Made by a program: the position numbers and the translations under genes
Shown here: positions 686 through 31,917 of the stretch, in pieces
Layout: each line of letters begins with the position of its first letter
Numbering within the stretch: position 1 is the first letter of the stretch
IMG/VR virus record: IMGVR_UViG_3300035070_000401
Span: 1 to 31,991 of that record
Length of the DNA stretch: 31,991 nucleotides
From: a virus
Strand: one strand, 5' to 3'
Notes under the pieces: model-generated
Seen by the model: only the letters and a program-made list of their open reading frames with translations
Databases searched by the model: none
What the model was told of the DNA's origin: nothing

Positions 686-700
686 GACGCTTTACGCGTC
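686..700 (-). other. Small hairpin spanning the stop codon of the GP88-like gene
   Basis: GACGC (686-690) and GCGTC (696-700) flank a 5-base loop. The TAA stop of the leftward gene lies at 692-694, inside the loop. The stem is short at 5 bp, but the two neighbouring genes in this cluster also have hairpins at or just after their stops. Confidence 0.35.
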
Positions 701-1489
701 AACCACAAAACCGGATTTGTCACGCTTGGCCGCACCCTTCGCATATAGTGCGACAGCAACGCCTTGCGGCTCGATGAAACGGGCGTCGGTATCGTCGCCA
801 TGCACAATGGGCAGGCCCTGGAATGTGTCGCCGTTGTTAATGAGGCGTTCTACAGTCTCATAATCACGGAACACTACCGCAAGGCGCATGCCAGCGGCGA
901 CGGCCTTGGCCACGAAAGGCGCATAGCCGCGCGTCCCGCTATAGCTATAAGTGAGGTCATACCAGGACAGCGCGCGCCTGTTCGGAATTTTGGTGTAGTC
1001 GTAAACTTTTAGGCCGTATTGATCCACTAGCGCGCCAACCATTGCCACCCATTGCGGCCAGTTTTCGAAGCGTATGTCGCTAGTGCCATTAGGGCGATAG
1101 GCTGGCGTCACGCCGTCACGCTGGCAAGCTTTGCAATGGCGTACAAGGTCACGCTCTAAGCGCGCCAGAAAAACTTCCGGCATTTGCTGCAGGACTAGAG
1201 TGCGGCGCAATCGTGAAAGCATCACGCTAGACATAGCGCCACGGCCTGCGGTGAATAGGCAAGGTGCGGCGCATTTGGCGACATCGGCCATCGCGCATAC
1301 GTTTTGCCCGCTAAGTTTATGAGGCGCTAGATATGTCACGGCTGTACGAATGCCAAGCTTTTCGCCTTTGGATGTTTTAGCGTCCGCGCCGATTGTTACA
1401 ACGCTGTCGATCACGTTACGGCTCTTGGCGATATAGGCGGCCATCTGTTGGCGGGTGGCGGCGTCTAGTGCTGTTAGGTCTAAGGTCAT
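692..1489 (-). CDS. GP88/DUF7227-like cysteine-containing phage protein
   Basis: A 265-aa product starts at ATG 1489, preceded by AAAGGATAAC. The central region has the pattern I associate with the phage GP88/DUF7227 family: LSGQNVC followed by CAAPCL (C65, C73, C77), a GRG motif (82-84) and an RRT (95-97) followed by a P..F segment. A second cysteine pair, C119 and C122, lies further on, followed by GTSDIRFE (135-142). Family members are common in phages of actinobacteria and proteobacteria; I know of no proven biochemical role. The cysteines could bind metal or an iron-sulfur cluster. The family call is from pattern memory only. The gene is the largest of the leftward GC-rich cluster, and its composition differs from that of the late operon. 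Confidence 0.7.
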   Translation of the reverse strand: MTLDLTALDAATRQQMAAYIAKSRNVIDSVVTIGADAKTSKGEKLGIRTAVTYLAPHKLSGQNVCAMADVAKCAAPCLFTAGRGAMSSVMLSRLRRTLVLQQMPEVFLARLERDLVRHCKACQRDGVTPAYRPNGTSDIRFENWPQWVAMVGALVDQYGLKVYDYTKIPNRRALSWYDLTYSYSGTRGYAPFVAKAVAAGMRLAVVFRDYETVERLINNGDTFQGLPIVHGDDTDARFIEPQGVAVALYAKGAAKRDKSGFVVDA

Positions 1490-1873: not shown

Positions 1874-1902
1874 ATTATATAGCAAGGACAAAAAAAGAAC
1901 AA
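1874..1902 (-). promoter_or_regulatory. Candidate leftward sigma70-type promoter
   Basis: On the minus strand there is a perfect TATAAT (plus 1874-1879), with a TG a few bases upstream. A weak TTGTTC -35 (1897-1902) lies 17 bp away. It sits about 120 bases upstream of the first leftward gene, in the right orientation. The -35 matches consensus at only 3 of 6 positions, so an activator may be needed; the repeat arrays lie just upstream. Confidence 0.45.
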
Positions 1903-2008: not shown

Positions 2009-2060
2009 GTGTTGCAAATTTACCACAGGTGTTGCAGAAATGTCACAGGTGTTACATTGT
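2009..2060. repeat. 20-bp direct repeats with GTGTTGCA core
   Basis: Units start at 2009, 2029 and 2049, an exact 20-bp period. The first two share GTGTTGCA near the start and CACAG at the end; the third keeps GTGTTACA. Two helical turns per unit put every copy on the same face of the DNA, as in iterons or operator arrays. Confidence 0.65.
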
Positions 2061-2106
2061 ATCAATTCGTTAGATATTACATAGCAGGCTAATGGTTAAT
2101 GCCCTA

Positions 2107-2166
2107 ACAGTAAGCAAGACGACAGTAAGTTACGCAACAATAAGCTATGCAACAATTAGGGTGCTA
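2107..2166. repeat. Four degenerate 15-bp direct repeats (ACARTAAG type)
   Basis: Units start at 2107, 2122, 2137 and 2152. They read ACAGTAAGCAAGACG, ACAGTAAGTTACGCA, ACAATAAGCTATGCA and a diverged ACAATTAGGGTGCTA. The period is exactly 15 bp. This sequence differs from the arrays on either side. Confidence 0.55.
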
Positions 2167-2177
2167 ACTAATTTCCA

Positions 2178-2309
2178 TTGTGCGATGCAGCATTCTATTG
2201 TGCGGTGCAGCATTTCACCAGGTGAATTTGTGCAGTGCAGCATTCTATTGTGCGGTGCAACATAGCAGCCAGTATGTGTTGTGCGGTTGTGTTGTGCGGT
2301 GCAGCACAT
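2178..2309. repeat. TTGTGCGGTGCAGCATT repeat array (six sites)
   Basis: Copies begin at 2178, 2198, 2228, 2248, 2279 (partial) and 2292, so the spacings are 20, 30, 20, 31 and 13 bp. The first four intervals are close to whole helical turns. The last copy is a clean inverted repeat, TGTGC-GGTGCA-GCACA (2293-2308); the others have a weaker right half. A perfect 13-bp palindrome (2214-2226) sits between the two inner copies, giving the array an almost symmetric plan. It looks like a binding array for a dimeric protein. Confidence 0.75.
2214..2226. promoter_or_regulatory. 13-bp palindrome, candidate operator
   Basis: TTCACC-A-GGTGAA is a perfect inverted repeat with one central base. It is centred between the second and third TTGTGC repeat copies. 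The form is typical of a site for a helix-turn-helix dimer. Confidence 0.5.
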
Positions 2310-2313
2310 TTTT

Positions 2314-2340
2314 GGGGGTCCGGGCCGGGGGTGCGCGGGG
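2314..2340 (+). other. G-quadruplex motif on the plus strand
   Basis: Four G runs (GGGGG, GGG, GGGGG, GGGG) are joined by loops of 3, 2 and 5 bases, which satisfies the canonical G4 pattern. It is an isolated GC-rich island in AT-rich surroundings, directly after the last TTGTGC repeat. It may act at the DNA level (origin, recombination start) or in RNA. Confidence 0.6.
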
Positions 2341-2555
2341 TGCCTCTTATATGTACAATACACCAAAACATTTTCTAATAATTTTTTAGGTCATGCAAAA
2401 AGCCCTAGAAAGCTCCTGTACGTCCAAGGCTTGTTTCTAGGCTACGAACCCACCAGATAACAAGACAAGGACACCACAGGAGGCTCCTAGAGCTTTACAA
2501 GAGCTATTTGACATATGAGGCTACCCTAGAAAAGCGGAACCTTCCTAAGGATATA

Positions 2556-2640
2556 CTTAGTACTATCCTATGTACTATAATCCTTTATATATTTTCTTTA
2601 TAGATTTACCTAGTACAGTACTAAGTACTATCCTTAGTAC
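2556..2640. repeat. Pair of 20-bp GTAC-rich repeats with a TAGTAC-A-GTACTA palindrome
   Basis: CTTAGTACTATCCTATGTAC (2556-2575) and CTAAGTACTATCCTTAGTAC (2621-2640) differ at only three positions. A 13-base palindrome lies between them at 2611-2623. The set ends just before a TATAAT at 2649-2654 that lacks a -35, and about 80 bases before the strong rightward promoter. Confidence 0.55.
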
Positions 2641-2721
2641 GTCCTAAGTATAATACTAGGGTATCATACTTACCAATCTTTGTCAATAATAAAATTAAAA
2701 ATATATTTTGCACTTTCCCTA

Positions 2722-2750
2722 TTGACACCAACATAAGAATGCTATATACT
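2722..2750 (+). promoter_or_regulatory. Strong rightward sigma70 promoter for the late operon
   Basis: A perfect TTGACA -35 (2722-2727), a 17-bp spacer and TATACT -10 (2745-2750) precede the small terminase gene by about 85 bases. The flanks are AT-rich (A-tracts at 2690-2705). This is the best host-type promoter in the window and predicts that host RNA polymerase starts the structural operon, with a start site near 2757. Confidence 0.85.
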
Positions 2751-2784
2751 GTTTAACAAATCAATTATTCATTAAAATAAGTAC

Positions 2785-2829
2785 CCTTAGTTCTAGTCCT
2801 TAGGACATACTAAGGATACCTTAAGGAAC
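2785..2829 (+). promoter_or_regulatory. Structured leader around the small terminase ribosome-binding site
   Basis: CCTTAG (2785-2790) pairs with CTAAGG (2810-2815), enclosing a second small stem GTCC/GGAC. The ribosome-binding site AAGGA is part of a CCTTAAGG palindrome just after this hairpin. Such folding could limit translation of the first gene; this is inference from pairing only. Confidence 0.35.
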
Positions 2830-2834
2830 CCTAA

Positions 2835-3368
2835 ATGGCTTTGTTTGAAAGAGAAGCATTTATTAACTCAGTTGGTCATACAAGAATTAAGTCACTATTT
2901 TTTGAGTTGAGTTATGATAACAATAAGTTCCATCTATTTACTTTAAAAGATAAAGACTTTGTTACCCCCGAAGGTAAGACCCTTCTTAGTATTAAGAAAT
3001 TGTATTTAGATTATGTGTCAAATGATCCAACTGAGTATACCTTTGCTATGGCTGTCTTTGGTACTTGGGATATTTGGGATACGATAAGAACTAACCTATC
3101 TCTCCGTAAGTACTACAGTAGGTGGCGAGAAGAAGTTGATGTAAGGATTAAGTCAGAAGCAATCAGAAGCATAGCTGAGGAAATGAGAGAAGGTGGTAGG
3201 TCATCCTTTACAGCAGCCAAACTACTTCTAGAAAGAGGTTGGATTGAAAAGGTTAGTCCTAATGATCGTAAGTCCGCAAGACAAAAGCAAAAAGAAACTG
3301 CCTTAGATCGTCAAGCTATGCAAATGCTCTCCAAAGACGCAGAACGGTTAGGTCTAAAGGTTAACTAG
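2835..3368 (+). CDS. terS: Putative terminase small subunit
   Basis: A 177-aa product begins MALFEREAFINSVGHTRIKS, followed by FFELSYD, a TLKD segment and a DPTEYTFA motif. From memory this matches a conserved protein in marine podoviruses and other tailed phages that is annotated as terminase small subunit. The small subunit recognises the packaging site on DNA and loads the large subunit. Residues about 90-135 look helical and basic (RKYYSRWREEVDVRIKSEA) and the C-terminus is Lys/Arg-rich, suitable for DNA contact. It is the first gene after the strong promoter, but is separated from the large terminase (7602) by the tail spike block. The ribosome-binding site AAGGA is 7 bases before the ATG. 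Confidence 0.65.
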   Translation: MALFEREAFINSVGHTRIKSLFFELSYDNNKFHLFTLKDKDFVTPEGKTLLSIKKLYLDYVSNDPTEYTFAMAVFGTWDIWDTIRTNLSLRKYYSRWREEVDVRIKSEAIRSIAEEMREGGRSSFTAAKLLLERGWIEKVSPNDRKSARQKQKETALDRQAMQMLSKDAERLGLKVN

Positions 3369-7601: not shown

Positions 7602-9149
7602 ATGCAACCTAAAAAACCATCATTAGACGACGTAAGACTAGCTGCTGAAGCTGACCTTTCAGTATTTATTAAGTTGGTTGCGCCTGAGCAGATGTTAGGT
7701 ATTTGCCACGAAGATGTAATTAACTGGTGGACTAGGCAAGACAGTAAGTCACACCAGCTTCTACTCTTTCCTCGTGACCACGGTAAGTCTAGGTTAATTG
7801 CATTTAGGGCAGCCTGGGAACTAACTAAAGACCCAACACTTAGGATTTTATACATTTCAGCTACAGCAAACCTAGCTGAGAAACAGTTGTCGTTCATCAA
7901 GGGTATCCTTACATCTGATACATATCAGAGATACTGGCCTGAACATGTCCACAAAGAAGAAGGTAAGCGCACCCGTTGGACGACATCTGAAATTTGCCTA
8001 GACCACCCACTAAGAAAAGAAGAGAACATTCGTGATCCTTCCGTCTTTACAGGTGGCCTAACTACTAGCTTAACTGGTTTGCATTGTGACATCGCAGTAC
8101 TTGACGATGCAGTCGTATACGAGAATGCCTACACAAACGAAGGACGAGACAGAGTTAAAAGTCAATACTCTTTGTTGTCATCCATCGAAGGAGCTAACTC
8201 AAGGGAATGGGTTGTAGGCACTAGGTATCATCCTAAAGATTTGTATAACGACTTAATGCAAATGCAAGAGGACACTTACGACGACAACGGAGACATAGAC
8301 GGTTCTATTCCAATCTACGAAGTATACGAAAGAGCAGTCGAAGATAGTGGCGAAGGTAATGGTGAGTTCCTTTGGCCTAAGCAAAAACGTAAAGATGGAA
8401 AGTGGTTTGGTTTTGATCGTCAGGTCTTAGCTAAGAAAAGAGGGCAGTACCTAGACAAGAGCCAATTCAAAGCTCAATACTACAACGACCCTACTGATCC
8501 TGACAACGTACCAGTCAGAAGAGAAAAGTTTCAGTACTTCGAAAGAAAGTTCTTGACAAGGGATAACGGTTACTGGTACTATAAGGACCGTAGAATCAAT
8601 GTATTTGCAGCAGTTGACTTTGCATTTAGTTTAAATCGTAAGGCTGACTACACAGCTATTGTAGTTGTAGGTGTAGACGGAGAGAATAACTGCTACGTTA
8701 TTGACATAGATAGGTTCAGAACTGAGAGAATTTCAGACTACTTCGAACACATACTTAATCTACATGCTAAGTGGTCTTTCCGTAAGATCAGAGCCGAAGT
8801 TACAGTAGCTCAGTCAGCTATCGTAAAACAACTAAAAGAAATGATTAAAGACCACGGCCTGTCTCTCAGCATTGATGAGTTCAGACCTAGTAAGTCTCAT
8901 GGTAGTAAGCAAGAACGTATAGCATCTACCCTTGAACCTAGATACGACAACTTACAGATTTGGCATTACAAAGGTGGCAACATCCAAATACTAGAAGAAG
9001 AGCTATCTAGTAGGAACCCACCACACGATGACGTAATCGACGCATTAGCTTCATGTATTGATATGGCTATTAAACCATCGACTAGCCTAAACAGAAAAAA
9101 CAGAAGCAACATTGTTTGGGCTAATAACAGATTTAGAGGTGCTGCCTAA
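7602..9149 (+). CDS. terL: Terminase large subunit
   Basis: The 515-aa packaging motor drives ATP-dependent DNA translocation into the prohead and cuts concatemers. The Walker A-like motif is LLLFPRDHGKSR (residues about 53-64). Walker B is DIAVLDD (about 163-169). A coupling-motif region follows. The RNase H-like nuclease domain begins with FAAVDFAFSLN (acidic D near 338) and ends with the typical NPPHDDVIDALA (about 472-483). Length is normal for the family. The stop overlaps the portal start as TAATG, so the two are translationally coupled. The start is at ATG 7602. An AAGG lies about 10 bases before it. Confidence 0.95.
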   Translation: MQPKKPSLDDVRLAAEADLSVFIKLVAPEQMLGICHEDVINWWTRQDSKSHQLLLFPRDHGKSRLIAFRAAWELTKDPTLRILYISATANLAEKQLSFIKGILTSDTYQRYWPEHVHKEEGKRTRWTTSEICLDHPLRKEENIRDPSVFTGGLTTSLTGLHCDIAVLDDAVVYENAYTNEGRDRVKSQYSLLSSIEGANSREWVVGTRYHPKDLYNDLMQMQEDTYDDNGDIDGSIPIYEVYERAVEDSGEGNGEFLWPKQKRKDGKWFGFDRQVLAKKRGQYLDKSQFKAQYYNDPTDPDNVPVRREKFQYFERKFLTRDNGYWYYKDRRINVFAAVDFAFSLNRKADYTAIVVVGVDGENNCYVIDIDRFRTERISDYFEHILNLHAKWSFRKIRAEVTVAQSAIVKQLKEMIKDHGLSLSIDEFRPSKSHGSKQERIASTLEPRYDNLQIWHYKGGNIQILEEELSSRNPPHDDVIDALASCIDMAIKPSTSLNRKNRSNIVWANNRFRGAA

Positions 9150-18249: not shown

Positions 18250-21200
18250 ATGCCTGAGATTGGTAATGAAGAAGAAATGGTCTTTGAAGAAATAGGTGCG
18301 ACTAGCTCAGAGCCTATACCTTTGACGCCTGAAAGATCAATGGACATTCTTGTTGCTACTGGAGAACCGTTAGAAACTTCTGAAGAAGCTAAGGCTAGTT
18401 TAGCTCCTTACTCTCAGGATGCTCTCAGAGAAGTACTAAGCTCCGCTGAAGCAGATAGACTAACCCTAGATGAAGTTCAAGCTAAAGCTATAGAACTAAG
18501 TGAAAAGCAAAGAGCCTTTGAAGAAAACCCTGACGTTGTTTTAGAACAAGCTGCTTTAGTTAATAACCCTGCTGTTAGCTCTGCTGAATCAAATTTAGCT
18601 GTTAACACTCAAAGGGCATTGGAAGAAGTCGAAGCTGCAATTACAGAAGCAAAAGAAGAAAACAGCACCGTAGGGAATATGCTTAATTTCCTAGACAGAG
18701 AACTTGTTAGGGCGGTAGTTAACCCTATTGAAGCGTTTACTGAGAGAGACACTAGGTCTACTACTGAGATCATGTCAAGAAGTCTAGGCGATCCAAAAGA
18801 CTTTTTAACTTGGTTTAAGGGCTACCTAGAAGAAAGAAAAGAAGAAGGTGTCTTTAGAAGTGGTAGCATTAGTGCGCTTGAAGCTCTTAAAGAGGAAGTA
18901 GGTAATTTAGGTTTTGACCCAAACTCAGGTTTTAAAAAGGCTTTTTCTCTTATAGACTTACCTGCCATCGGCACTGTAGCAGCCAGTGCTAAAGTAGTTG
19001 GCAAAGGTCTTCAATTAACTTCTATTATTGGTTCAAAAACTACAGTCGGTAGAGTAACAGCACTTAGAGGAGAAAGAGCTGGAGAAGAAGCTGCTGAAAC
19101 AATTCTTGAAAGGGGGCCAGACCCAGAGACAGTAGTTGGCAGAGGTGATGCTACACAAGATTTAAGTGGTTCTGAACCTGTTAGAGCTAACAATTCTAGT
19201 TTTGCACAAAAATTAACTGAGACTGCTCTTGCTAAAGAGATTGACCAATTAGATCGTAAAGGTGCCTTTGGACGTTCTGTAACTAAAGAAAAAATTGCAG
19301 AAGCAGCAGGTAAAATTATTCAAGATATTCGTGATAACACAACCAATGTAATTAGAAGTGACGCTAAGATAGTCAATGAAGGTCTAGGGAACTGGCTTGT
19401 TTCTGTAAGACTAGGTAAAGCTAAAACAGGTGATGCTTACCTTCCTATCCAAACTAAAGCTGTAAAAGAAGGTGAACGTATTGTAGCTAAACTAGCAGAC
19501 GGAACAGCAGTTAAAGCTAAAGATGAACTATCAACCTTTGGGGAAACGACAGGTACAGGTACAGGTAAAGAAGGTACTTCTAAAATTGAGTATAAAGTAC
19601 CACCCTCTGTTAAACGTGCTGCTGAGAAACTTGGGCCTACAGCTAAGGTTGTCCAACTAGACCCCGCTGATGCCTCTAAAGGTTATGTCATTGAAGTAAC
19701 AGAGCGTGTAAGCACCTTAGGTCTTCAAGATAAACTTGGCGTAGAGCTAAACTTAAAGAACGACCTAGCTAGAAGAACTGTAGGTAAACTCTTTAACAAC
19801 AGACTTATGGCTGGTGCTGCACTTAGGGACAACAGATTTCTAACTACTTTGGCTCAATTAGGTCAAGGTGGTAGGGCCGTTGTTAGGGACATTGTTAGAC
19901 CTTATGAAAAATCAATTAAGGCTCTTGACTCTAAAGGTAAGTTTACTCTTAACGCTGTGTATGCCAAGCTGAGAGATGGGGAACATGCTCATGTACGCAC
20001 AAGGTACACTGATGAGGAGTTTTTTGATGAGTACAGAAAACTACACCCTGACGGTGCTGAAGCTACTCAAAAAGAATTGGATGCTTATCACGATCTAGCT
20101 ACCGTTGAAGAGACTGCCTACTTAATTGAAACGACTAATGTCCTTCAAAGGTTCCTATCCAAAGGGTACAATAGGGCTGTTGAGGTTGCCCCAGGTGTGT
20201 TCACTCCAGCTAAGAGAATTACAAAAGCTGAACTGAAGGACTCAGACATTGTTCTTGATGTCGAAGGAAGAGTCTATGGTAGATTAAACGATGAAATTGT
20301 TTTCGGAGATTTAGCTGATGACATTCCAGTTTGGAAGCTAGACCAAGCACTACCTACAGGGCAGAGCTTTGTGGTTAACCCTACTAATGCCCGTCTTATC
20401 GACCCTACTGATGTTATGGGGTACAACCCAGGTGGTAGAAGAATAAACCCTAACGCTAAGTACTTCCTAGTGATCGGTGGGCAAGGTAAGAGAGTTAAGG
20501 CTCTTTTGTCAACCTTTTCTGAGGCAGACGCTAAAGTAGCTAAGGATCAAATGAGGGTTGTTTTAAAAGCAATCAACGAGGGTTCTTCTGACATAGATGA
20601 GATTATTAAAAGAAACAACGACTGGAACCCTGACATTCAATCTAAAGCACAGTTTGATGAGTTAGCTTTCGAACAAGGGTGGGTAAAAAATAGAGGTGAC
20701 CAGATTGAAGGTGACGTAGCCTACAGAGCTAGAGACGGTGAGATAATAGGTGGTGACTTAGACAACGCAGACCTTTGGGCTAATACCTCAGCAGAAGACT
20801 ACATTCAAAATGACATGAGAAGACAAGACAAGGTTCTTATGGACTTTGGTGGAGGTAAAACCTATAACATTGACCCTGTGTCTTCTACCTTTGCTCAGTT
20901 TGGTGACTCAGTGTTTACCTATACCAATAAAGCCTACACACAGAATGCTATGGTTGGTTGGGTCAAAGCTGCTTTACCTAAGGATGGAGTAAAAAGGTCA
21001 GAATGGTTTAAGAAGGCTGGTGGTGTAAGTGAGTCTGACTACGAAACTCTCTTTAGAAACGCTGAAGTAACTGGCACAGATGAGTTCGCTGTCCGTATGA
21101 GAGAGCTTAGAAACATTACTCTTCGTAGGCTAAACATGCAGGATGAGCCATCTAGGTTTATGGAGCAACTTGGTACTAAAACTGCTGAGTATATTTTTGA

Positions 21201-28831: not shown

Positions 28832-28908
28832 TGGCGTCCCCGGTAGGATTCGAACCTACGACCCACAGCTTAGAAGGCTGTTGCTCTATCCTGCTGAGCT
28901 ACGGAGAC
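28832..28908 (-). tRNA. tRNA-Arg (anticodon UCU)
   Basis: 77 nt with encoded CCA (plus 28832-28834). The acceptor stem GTCTCCG/CGGGGAC has 7 pairs with one G-U. The D-arm is GCTC/GAGC. The anticodon stem ACAGC/GCTGT encloses the loop CTTCTAA, giving anticodon TCT. The T-arm GTAGG-TTCGAAT-CCTAC is canonical. It reads AGA/AGG codons, which most structural genes of this phage use heavily. It sits inside the leftward operon between the 141-aa gene and thyX, so it would be cut from a longer transcript. Confidence 0.97.
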
Positions 28909-29642: not shown

Positions 29643-31331
29643 TTAGACCCCACAACTTCCTCCTGATCCTGAGATGTCACAGATATCGTGTGTCTCAACA
29701 TGTTCGTCAAACTCCTCACCAAGTTTCTCAACAGCTTCAGTGTATGGCACAGATGTTAGCGGCTGTCCACCCCTACTGCCGTCAGGATAGCAAGTAAATC
29801 CTCTCAACCTACCTGCATACTTAGCTAGGGTCTTAGAAAAATCAGGAACTGTGTCTTCGTTGTTGAGCTTACTACCCCAAGCAGGAAGGTTAATGGTTGA
29901 GGAGATACTCATATCAACGTAGTCCTGAACGTCAGCTTGGAAGCTCATACGACGTTCGTAGTCAGAAGCTAGGTCGAGGGCTGACTCAACACTCTCAGGG
30001 TTGGCTCCGTACAGGTCAATGAGTTCCTGTGCTGCTGAGTCAACAACGTACTGATAGACCCAACGGTTAGTTCCTTTGAGGTATCTACGCTTGTATGCCA
30101 CAGCAAAGATAGGTTCTACGCCGGTCGAAGTACCAGCAAGAATACCAATACTACCAGTTGGAGCAATAGCCCTGTTAGCCACGGGAGTGGACACAGATAG
30201 CCCCTCAGCAAACTGTTTAGATACTTTGTCACTAACTCCCTTATATACTGACAACCACGAATGAAGCTCCTGAGTAACCTCATACTTGTAGTTTCTCTTG
30301 ATGAGCCATTCGTGTACTCCCATAAAACCAAGGCCCAGTCGTCTGTTTTTTTCTCGTGTTTCATGTACCTTCTCATATGGTAGGTGGGCTTTGAGTGTAC
30401 CGCAAATGAGGAACTTAGTGGATAGTTCAACTAGGTCAGACAACTCAGATAGGCTTTCGATCCTACCAAAGTTAAGTGAACCTAAGTTGCATACATCACT
30501 GTCGTCTTCTGAGGTAACCTCAGTGCAGGCGTTCCGTAGGGTTTCGTTTTCCTTGTCAAAGAAATTGAAGCTAAACCCAGGCTCAGCAGTCTTCATTGCC
30601 TGTAGTACGTTCTCCTCAAAGACCTTACCTACTTGACCTGTTTCGTAGTAGTTCAGCAGCCACTCAGTATCGTAGTTGACACTAATGTTGGTCATGTCCA
30701 TAGGTGCAGGGAAGTTGAAGTCATCCTGCTTAATATCCCAAAGAGACTTACCTGTGCTACCTACTGGCATACTAGCCCAGTCTTTAGAGCTTAGGAATTT
30801 CCCTACGTCTTGGTGTTTCCAGTTGAGGGACGCATAAATAGCTGACCTGCGGCTACCACCTTGCATGACCCTACGGCCAATCTCGTTAATCATCTGCATC
30901 TTAGGGATAGGACCAGAAGCCTGTCCCCCTGTACGCTGGATGGGTGCGCCTTCATGTCGGTACACACTGTAGTCTACACCAATACCACCACCTGTCATAA
31001 GACATGACTCAGCCTTCCAGCTTAGGTTAGCCCAGTCTTGTCTGCTGTCTTCTTCTGCCTTAAGTAGGTAACAGTTATTGAAGAACTTATTCTGTCTTCC
31101 TGCGTAGTACAGATACCTACCACCGGGGATGAACTTCATGTCAGTGATAGCCTTAGCTAGGTCAGTGCATTCATCCCTAGTCATTAGGTCACCACATACG
31201 TCATCCACTAGGGTCTTAGCTAGGGCTTCCCAAGTCTCACAGCCTTCATGCCGGTACTTGTGATTGAAGATGTCCTCGCTGAACTTTGACCTGAACATTG
31301 GGTTTAGGTTTGACTTGTACGACATGCTCAT
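29643..31331 (-). CDS. nrdJ: Adenosylcobalamin-dependent (class II) ribonucleotide reductase
   Basis: 562 aa, the compact single-chain type found in marine phages. It reduces ribonucleotides to deoxyribonucleotides using adenosylcobalamin. Visible: first active-site cysteine in NNCYLL (C87), MTGGGIGVDYS, the NACTE motif (C269, E271), CNLGSLN (281-287), PTGSIG (about 388-393) and a C-terminal redox pair C551/C560 in CDISGSGGSCGV. It is all in one frame, with no inserted intron. The start at 31331 has AAAGGAAAG about 10 bases upstream; a second ATG lies two codons on. Its first 86 bases overlap the upstream HNH gene in another frame. Confidence 0.95.
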   Translation of the reverse strand: MSMSYKSNLNPMFRSKFSEDIFNHKYRHEGCETWEALAKTLVDDVCGDLMTRDECTDLAKAITDMKFIPGGRYLYYAGRQNKFFNNCYLLKAEEDSRQDWANLSWKAESCLMTGGGIGVDYSVYRHEGAPIQRTGGQASGPIPKMQMINEIGRRVMQGGSRRSAIYASLNWKHQDVGKFLSSKDWASMPVGSTGKSLWDIKQDDFNFPAPMDMTNISVNYDTEWLLNYYETGQVGKVFEENVLQAMKTAEPGFSFNFFDKENETLRNACTEVTSEDDSDVCNLGSLNFGRIESLSELSDLVELSTKFLICGTLKAHLPYEKVHETREKNRRLGLGFMGVHEWLIKRNYKYEVTQELHSWLSVYKGVSDKVSKQFAEGLSVSTPVANRAIAPTGSIGILAGTSTGVEPIFAVAYKRRYLKGTNRWVYQYVVDSAAQELIDLYGANPESVESALDLASDYERRMSFQADVQDYVDMSISSTINLPAWGSKLNNEDTVPDFSKTLAKYAGRLRGFTCYPDGSRGGQPLTSVPYTEAVEKLGEEFDEHVETHDICDISGSGGSCGV

Positions 31332-31917
31332 TTGTTTTTCTTTCCTTTGTTAGTTCATGTTTCTCAAGATAGTTTAAAGCCTTCATAACACCTTCAATGT
31401 TGTCACCTAATTTTCCGATAGCCAGATTGCAGTGATTACAAAGCAAGCCTCTTATTAGCCCAGTATCGTGATCGTGGTCAACAGCGAATCTGTTAGTTAA
31501 CTTATTCTGATGAATGCCGCAGCAAGCACACTTACCCTTTTGCTCAGTAAACATAAGGTTGTACTCATGTAACCCTATGCCAAATTTTCTTTTTATGTCT
31601 TTGGCTCTAATCTTCTCCCTATTCTTTTCTCTGTAGGCTTTGCTCTTGGCTCTAAGCTTCTCCTTGTTCTTTTCTCTGTAGGCTTTGCTCTTGGCGTTAA
31701 TCTTCTCCTTGTTCTTTTCATAGTAGGCTTTGCTATGGGCTTTGTGGTAGGCTTTAATCTGCTCCTTATTCTTTTCTCTGTAGGCTTTGTGCCTGGCGTT
31801 AATCTTCTCCTTATTCTTTTCATAGTAGGCTTTGTTCCAGGCTTTGTGGTAGGCTTTAAGCTTCTCCTTATTCTTTTCTCTGTAGGCTTTTGCATCCTCA
31901 GGATTAGCATAAGGCAT
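31246..31917 (-). CDS. HNH (endonuclease VII-type) homing endonuclease with tandem-repeat N-terminus
   Basis: 223 aa. Residues 11-109 are six repeats of AYREKNKEK(L/I)-type (units alternate mostly 19 and 15 aa, strongly basic/acidic helices). The C-terminal domain is the endonuclease VII fold: GKCACCGIHQNKL (C130, C133), AVDHDHDTG (H148, D149, H150), RGLLCNHCNLAIG (C160, C163), i.e. the zinc and beta-beta-alpha-metal site. Ribosome-binding site GAGGAGG; the ATG directly follows the upstream gene's TAA. The last 29 codons run into the RNR gene in another frame. Likely a free-standing homing endonuclease; the repeats may help DNA contact. Confidence 0.85.
   Translation of the reverse strand: MPYANPEDAKAYREKNKEKLKAYHKAWNKAYYEKNKEKINARHKAYREKNKEQIKAYHKAHSKAYYEKNKEKINAKSKAYREKNKEKLRAKSKAYREKNREKIRAKDIKRKFGIGLHEYNLMFTEQKGKCACCGIHQNKLTNRFAVDHDHDTGLIRGLLCNHCNLAIGKLGDNIEGVMKALNYLEKHELTKERKTNEHVVQVKPKPNVQVKVQRGHLQSQVPA
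31629..31880 (-). repeat. 102-bp higher-order tandem repeat within the HNH gene
   Basis: The block starting CTCTGTAGGCTTTG (plus strand) recurs at 31674, 31776 and 31878, exactly 102 bp apart, and at 31629, 45 bp from the next copy. The repeats encode 34-aa (19+15) and 15-aa units and differ by few bases, implying recent duplication by slippage or unequal recombination. Confidence 0.85.

Follow-up and report, generated by a model that had tools for sequence, protein, structure and literature searches.

What is the role of a closely packed set of direct repeats lying in non-coding DNA between two divergent sets of phage genes? The window (the whole stretch of DNA analyzed, 31,991 bases of an IMG/VR virus record that is classed as linear) carries such a region at 2009-2340, between leftward genes that extend to 1752 and rightward genes that begin at 2835. 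This setting was correctly described in an earlier note on the sequence, which suggested that the region might be a replication origin or a master switch. Its cis-acting character is borne out by the analysis, but an origin or switch is not the best reading, since the region can be aligned with the direct terminal repeats (DTRs) mapped in the Lentibacter phages ICBM1 and ICBM2 (Cobavirinae, Zobellviridae).

By its sequence the window is a 32-kb piece of a cobavirus genome (Zobellviridae; CRP-5/ICBM2/SIO1 group), a fragment with one copy of the terminal region. The roseophages CRP-5, CRP-4, ICBM1, ICBM2, SIO1 and P12053L match its terminase and tail-fibre region. In ICBM1, ICBM2 and CRP-5 the early genes run from one end of the genome and the late genes from the other, so that the arms converge mid-genome. 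The relative G002 (32,797 bases) shows this junction mid-contig, together with the whole early arm, which includes a DNA polymerase, primase-helicase, endonuclease I and dUTPase. We infer that the divergent gene sets flanking the repeats are the two arms of the genome joined at their ends; they would appear joined because the assembler merges the two identical end copies, and the collapsed copy is then seen as a concatemer junction. A chimeric contig is unlikely, as the region also connects the early genes with the late arm in four relatives (L006, L007, L009 and L010).

Three repeat arrays with a common core

The three arrays are all present as the earlier note had them, with periods of 20 bp, 15 bp and about 10n bp (Table 1). 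For Array 2 a tandem-repeat finder gives 2122-2156, the wider limits of the table being a direct reading. The units of Array 3 are spaced by 20/30/20/44, and the five exact copies of TTGTGCRRTGCARCA are the only ones in the window, with 0 expected from whole-window shuffles. The density of repetition is well above chance. Within 2009-2340 there are 43 extra copies of repeated 8-mers, compared with a mean of 2.3 and a maximum of 12 in 1000 shuffles. Comparable 8-mer repetition is found elsewhere in the window only in coding repeats near 31.4-31.9 kb. The strongest repeat block of the window lies there, in a predicted protein (31246-31917, minus strand) with long tandem AYREKNKEK-type repeats (45/102-bp repeats in the DNA) that precede an HNH-type domain, as judged by eye. 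A tRNA-Arg (TCT) gene at 28832-28908 (minus strand) adjoins thyX.

Table 1. Coordinates of features of the terminal region and of flanking genes in the window.
Feature	Position	Strand	Remarks
Source record	31,991 bases		IMG/VR virus record, classed linear
GP88-family early gene (PF17338)	692-1489	-	
Possible early promoter, TTGTTC-17-TATAAT	1874-1902	-	9/12; read from sequence, under scan threshold; block conserved in L006, L007
Array 1, 20-bp units GTGTTGCA.../GTGTTGCA.../GTGTTACA	2009-2053	-	~2.3 units; GCARCA core on minus strand
Array 2, 15-bp units ACARTAAG...	2107-2161	+	read directly from sequence; GCARCA core in middle units
Array 3, five exact TTGTGCRRTGCARCA units	2178-2306	+	starts 2178, 2198, 2228, 2248, 2292
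13-bp match TTCACCAGGTGAA	2214-2226		two 6-bp arms around one base
G-rich tract	2314-2340	+	counterpart of conserved G+C-rich end of cobavirus terminal repeats
Terminal consensus TGCCTCTTATATGTACAAT	2341-2359	+	homologous to mapped DTR ends of ICBM1 and ICBM2
Large conserved hairpin, then CTTTTTGC on minus strand	2399-2497	-	leftward terminator-like element
Inverted repeats of TACTTAGTAC type	2554-2652	none	
Sigma-70-type late-arm promoter, TTGACA-17-TATACT	2722-2750	+	12/12 in L006, L007, L010
First late gene, 177 aa, PHROG 8035 (no function assigned)	2835-3368	+	candidate small terminase
Large terminase subunit	7602-9149	+	

The arrays had been called unrelated, and this does not hold. All three carry the sequence GCARCA, on the minus strand in Array 1 and on the plus strand in Arrays 2 and 3, through which they are related at the level of sequence. 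There are nine copies, against 1.8 in shuffles, and none of 2000 shuffles reaches nine; in the 350 bp to the left of 2359 the nine copies compare with 0.65 expected from the record. What was taken for a perfect palindrome is the 13-bp match at 2214-2226, which falls in a stretch that is absent from the relatives and is thus unconserved. The G-rich tract at 2314-2340 is confirmed.

A predicted genome end to the right of the repeats

The G-rich tract and ATATGTACAAT together span 2314-2359, and it is this combination that gives the region its identity. DTRs of 159-173 bp were mapped from PacBio reads in ICBM1, ICBM2 and ICBM3 by Bischoff and colleagues, who also noted that the terminal repeats of cobaviruses have a G+C-rich region, conserved between phages, at one of their ends (PMC6775973). 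We found the DTRs in the deposited ICBM1 and ICBM2 sequences, with lengths of 172 and 159 bp, respectively. Read in the direction of the window, each ends with a G-rich tract followed by GTATGTACAAC or GTATGTACAAT, giving the consensus GTATGTACAAY. A G-rich tract and terminal motif are found at the equivalent place in CRP-5, SIO1, P12053L and several more IMG/VR contigs, and CRP-4 has a variant form of the motif. When 2000-2840 was compared blind by BLAST with all phage records, 2337-2385 matched ICBM2 over its annotated DTR boundary, although weakly (E 0.3). The terminus is placed here because the tract and the consensus agree with the DTR ends mapped in ICBM1 and ICBM2, and the predicted terminase cut lies between 2359 and 2360. 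The only contigs that end exactly at the predicted cut are ICBM1 and ICBM2. On these alignments 2009-2359 is very probably the terminus region of a linear cobavirus genome.

Two positions are candidates for the left edge of the DTR. The lengths in ICBM1 and ICBM2 would place it at ~2188-2201, which would leave Arrays 1 and 2 immediately outside the repeat; the break in homology would place it at ~2009. At 2009-2010 homology with L009/L010 begins, the identity being at background to the left of 2009 and 84-88% just to the right. The region thus resembles the ICBM1 and ICBM2 DTRs in its G-rich tract, in GTATGTACAAY and in its position between early and late arms. It differs in its repeat units, in a conserved block of ~350 bp compared with mapped DTRs of 159-173 bp, and in that its ends are predicted from sequence.

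Might the same repeats mark a replication origin? Iteron-like initiator sites next to an AT-rich segment that is unwound would account for the ordered direct repeats and for the composition to their right, where 2501-3000 has only 30% GC, and such an origin could coincide with the terminus. Yet the region contains no exact DnaA-type TTWTNCACA box, the sole exact match in the window being at 19200, and no initiator was recognized by Pfam among ten proteins of the G002 early arm, several of which belong to no known family. The position, moreover, coincides with mapped genome ends. We therefore consider an origin unlikely.

Phages T7 and T3 offer another comparison. These share with our reading of the window a linear genome, terminal repeats, presumed concatemers and packaging signals near the ends (PMC3276506). 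They differ in repeat sequence, and in the window the late genes run away from the end and no phage RNA polymerase is seen. As to a polymerase of the phage's own, G002 encodes a T7-like DNA polymerase, but a phage RNA polymerase was not seen in that genome. The phage RNA polymerase family PF00940 had no match in G000 or G002, but the search control matched nowhere either; apart from the DNA polymerase, the G002 early arm contains no ORF of RNA-polymerase size.

Variable repeats and a candidate small terminase

How constant are the repeats? The arrays recur in L006, L007, L009 and L010, and Array 1 is kept in the alignment of all four. The number of units in Array 3 differs, with two in L006 and in L009/L010, and in L007 the spacing is ~31 bp. 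The block 2360-2654 beyond the cut is ~95% identical in relatives. In most of the lineages that were tested, short repeats are enriched to the left of the cut, their units differing by lineage, with no excess in L010, SIO1 and L072; GCARCA is absent to the left of the cut in ICBM2, CRP-5 and CRP-4. The repeats have the look of sites that change fast next to a cut sequence that stays constant. In three contigs (L044, L091 and L126) a repeated perfect dyad TGTGATCACA occurs within 300 bp to the left of the cut, with several copies in L044; it forms a repeat set unlike that of the window and resembles CRP/FNR-type half-sites. Another dyad, TGTTATA(G/C)TATAACA, is conserved ~150-300 bp to the left of the genome end in ICBM1, ICBM2 and CRP-4, and is degenerate in SIO1 and at 2049-2065 of the window.

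Rapid change of unit number and spacers between close relatives, and of repeat identity between lineages, is what would be expected of neutral turnover at a recombination-prone genome end where no protein is bound. Such turnover does not readily explain why GCARCA recurs across arrays of different period and orientation. Nor does it explain the six GCARCA sites that can be aligned in five of five genomes (the window and the same four relatives), where five sites vary, in each case by an A/G difference confined to position 4. Since the motif was already known when the genomes were compared, and the relatives are not independent, the comparison is suggestive and not a formal test; in the gapped part of the alignment, at the right end of Array 3, GCARCA sites vary at other positions too. 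Overall we find neutral turnover very improbable, and think it rather likely that the repeats act in maturation or packaging.

Which protein might bind them? The product of the first late gene is the best placed, as all the relatives checked have a homologue adjoining the terminus, with identity as low as ~32%. This 177-aa protein has no family match in Pfam or NCBIfam and no PDB sequence match. Its structural model has a mean pLDDT of 65, with moderate confidence only in residues 32-140, and a Foldseek search of the model against the PDB and viral models found no match at E ≤ 0.001. The best three matches from VIA-align are all small-terminase-type phage proteins, from P22 (Z 4.6), Sf6 (Z 4.2) and phBC6A51 (Z 4.0); these are weak, and the tool warns that Z values of 4.0-4.6 can reflect merely a common arrangement. 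From the modeled fold, the protein is a candidate for the small terminase, and probably is one. A simple pairing of the protein with GCARCA is disfavoured, because ICBM2 and CRP-5 have the more similar homologue yet lack GCARCA near their ends.

The GP88-family early gene was also considered as the source of an array-binding protein and was rejected. L006, L007, L009 and L010 carry the arrays and have no DNA match to the gene, while in L011-L017 the gene is present and the array motif is missing. The GP88-family gene and its surroundings match L011-L017, which are contigs with a different, distantly related terminase, and this suggests exchange of early modules between phage groups.

Transcription signals and proposed packaging at the junction

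The placement of promoters bears on the second part of the original proposal, a master switch. As a multi-operator switch, the arrays would be bound by a phage or host regulator that sets early versus late transcription. The region does lie between divergent arms, and other lineages have dyads and repeated operators close to the end, as in the repetition of TGTGATCACA in L044. However, the near-perfect rightward promoter lies far from the arrays, 363 bp beyond the predicted cut, and more than 100 bp separate Array 1 from the possible leftward promoter to its left. The repeats of ICBM1 and ICBM2 differ although both phages infect one strain, which argues against a host protein, and the two arms are not neighbours in the linear DNA of the virion. 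A switch is thus quite improbable.

The DNA beyond the cut has its own elements. From 2360 to 2720, between the predicted end and the late promoter, it is non-coding, ~95% conserved in the window's group and includes the large hairpin. The hairpin is strong, and the changes among the few distinct sequences keep G-U pairs on the minus strand. A search of 1750-2840 against Rfam gave no credible family. Six relatives, CRP-5 (L002), ICBM2 (L018), L044, L101, L091 and L126, have leftward signals at about 50 to 400 bp beyond the cut. In each a leftward sigma-70 promoter scoring 11 or 12/12 lies just to the right of the cut, equally good ones occurring in 0-3 of 200 shuffles, and in most of the six a leftward terminator-like hairpin (that of L126 identified by eye) starts 73-132 bp from the cut. 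In the window's group the leftward promoter to the right of the cut scores only 9/12, which is chance level, and none is present beside the cut in ICBM1 and SIO1. It is conceivable, if doubtful, that many cobaviruses have a short leftward transcription unit inside the late end, aimed at the junction and with no evident gene, where a stopped host RNA polymerase could mark the junction for terminase or a small RNA could serve packaging. In T7 it is a complex of RNA polymerase with lysozyme that pauses at the concatemer junction, where it encounters gp18 and gp19 (PMC3276506); the hypothetical cobavirus unit would use the host polymerase in the role that T7 gives to its own enzyme.

With or without such a unit, we favour as probable the explanation that 2009-2359 is all or part of the DTR, seen as a concatemer junction, and that the role of its repeats is in maturation and packaging, probably as binding sites for the candidate small terminase. 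Replication would produce head-to-tail concatemers, in which a packaging protein, most likely the 177-aa candidate, would bind the repeated GCARCA-containing sites. The bound protein would direct the large terminase to cut near 2359/2360 beside the G-rich tract, and the terminal repeat would be duplicated so that both ends carry a copy. The cobavirus terminal repeat is a kind of element that is already known; the papers searched gave no description of the arrays of this phage.

Working from sequence alone, the analysis places the physical end of the genome in a marine phage lineage that is uncultured, and corrects its reading as an origin or switch. It also names candidates for the packaging sites and for the small terminase in a globally distributed group of phages, where the records of ICBM1, ICBM2, CRP-4 and CRP-5 annotate no small terminase. 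Given that lineage-specific sets of repeats appear to lie beside a constant cut sequence, the rules by which packaging sites are recognized would become testable.
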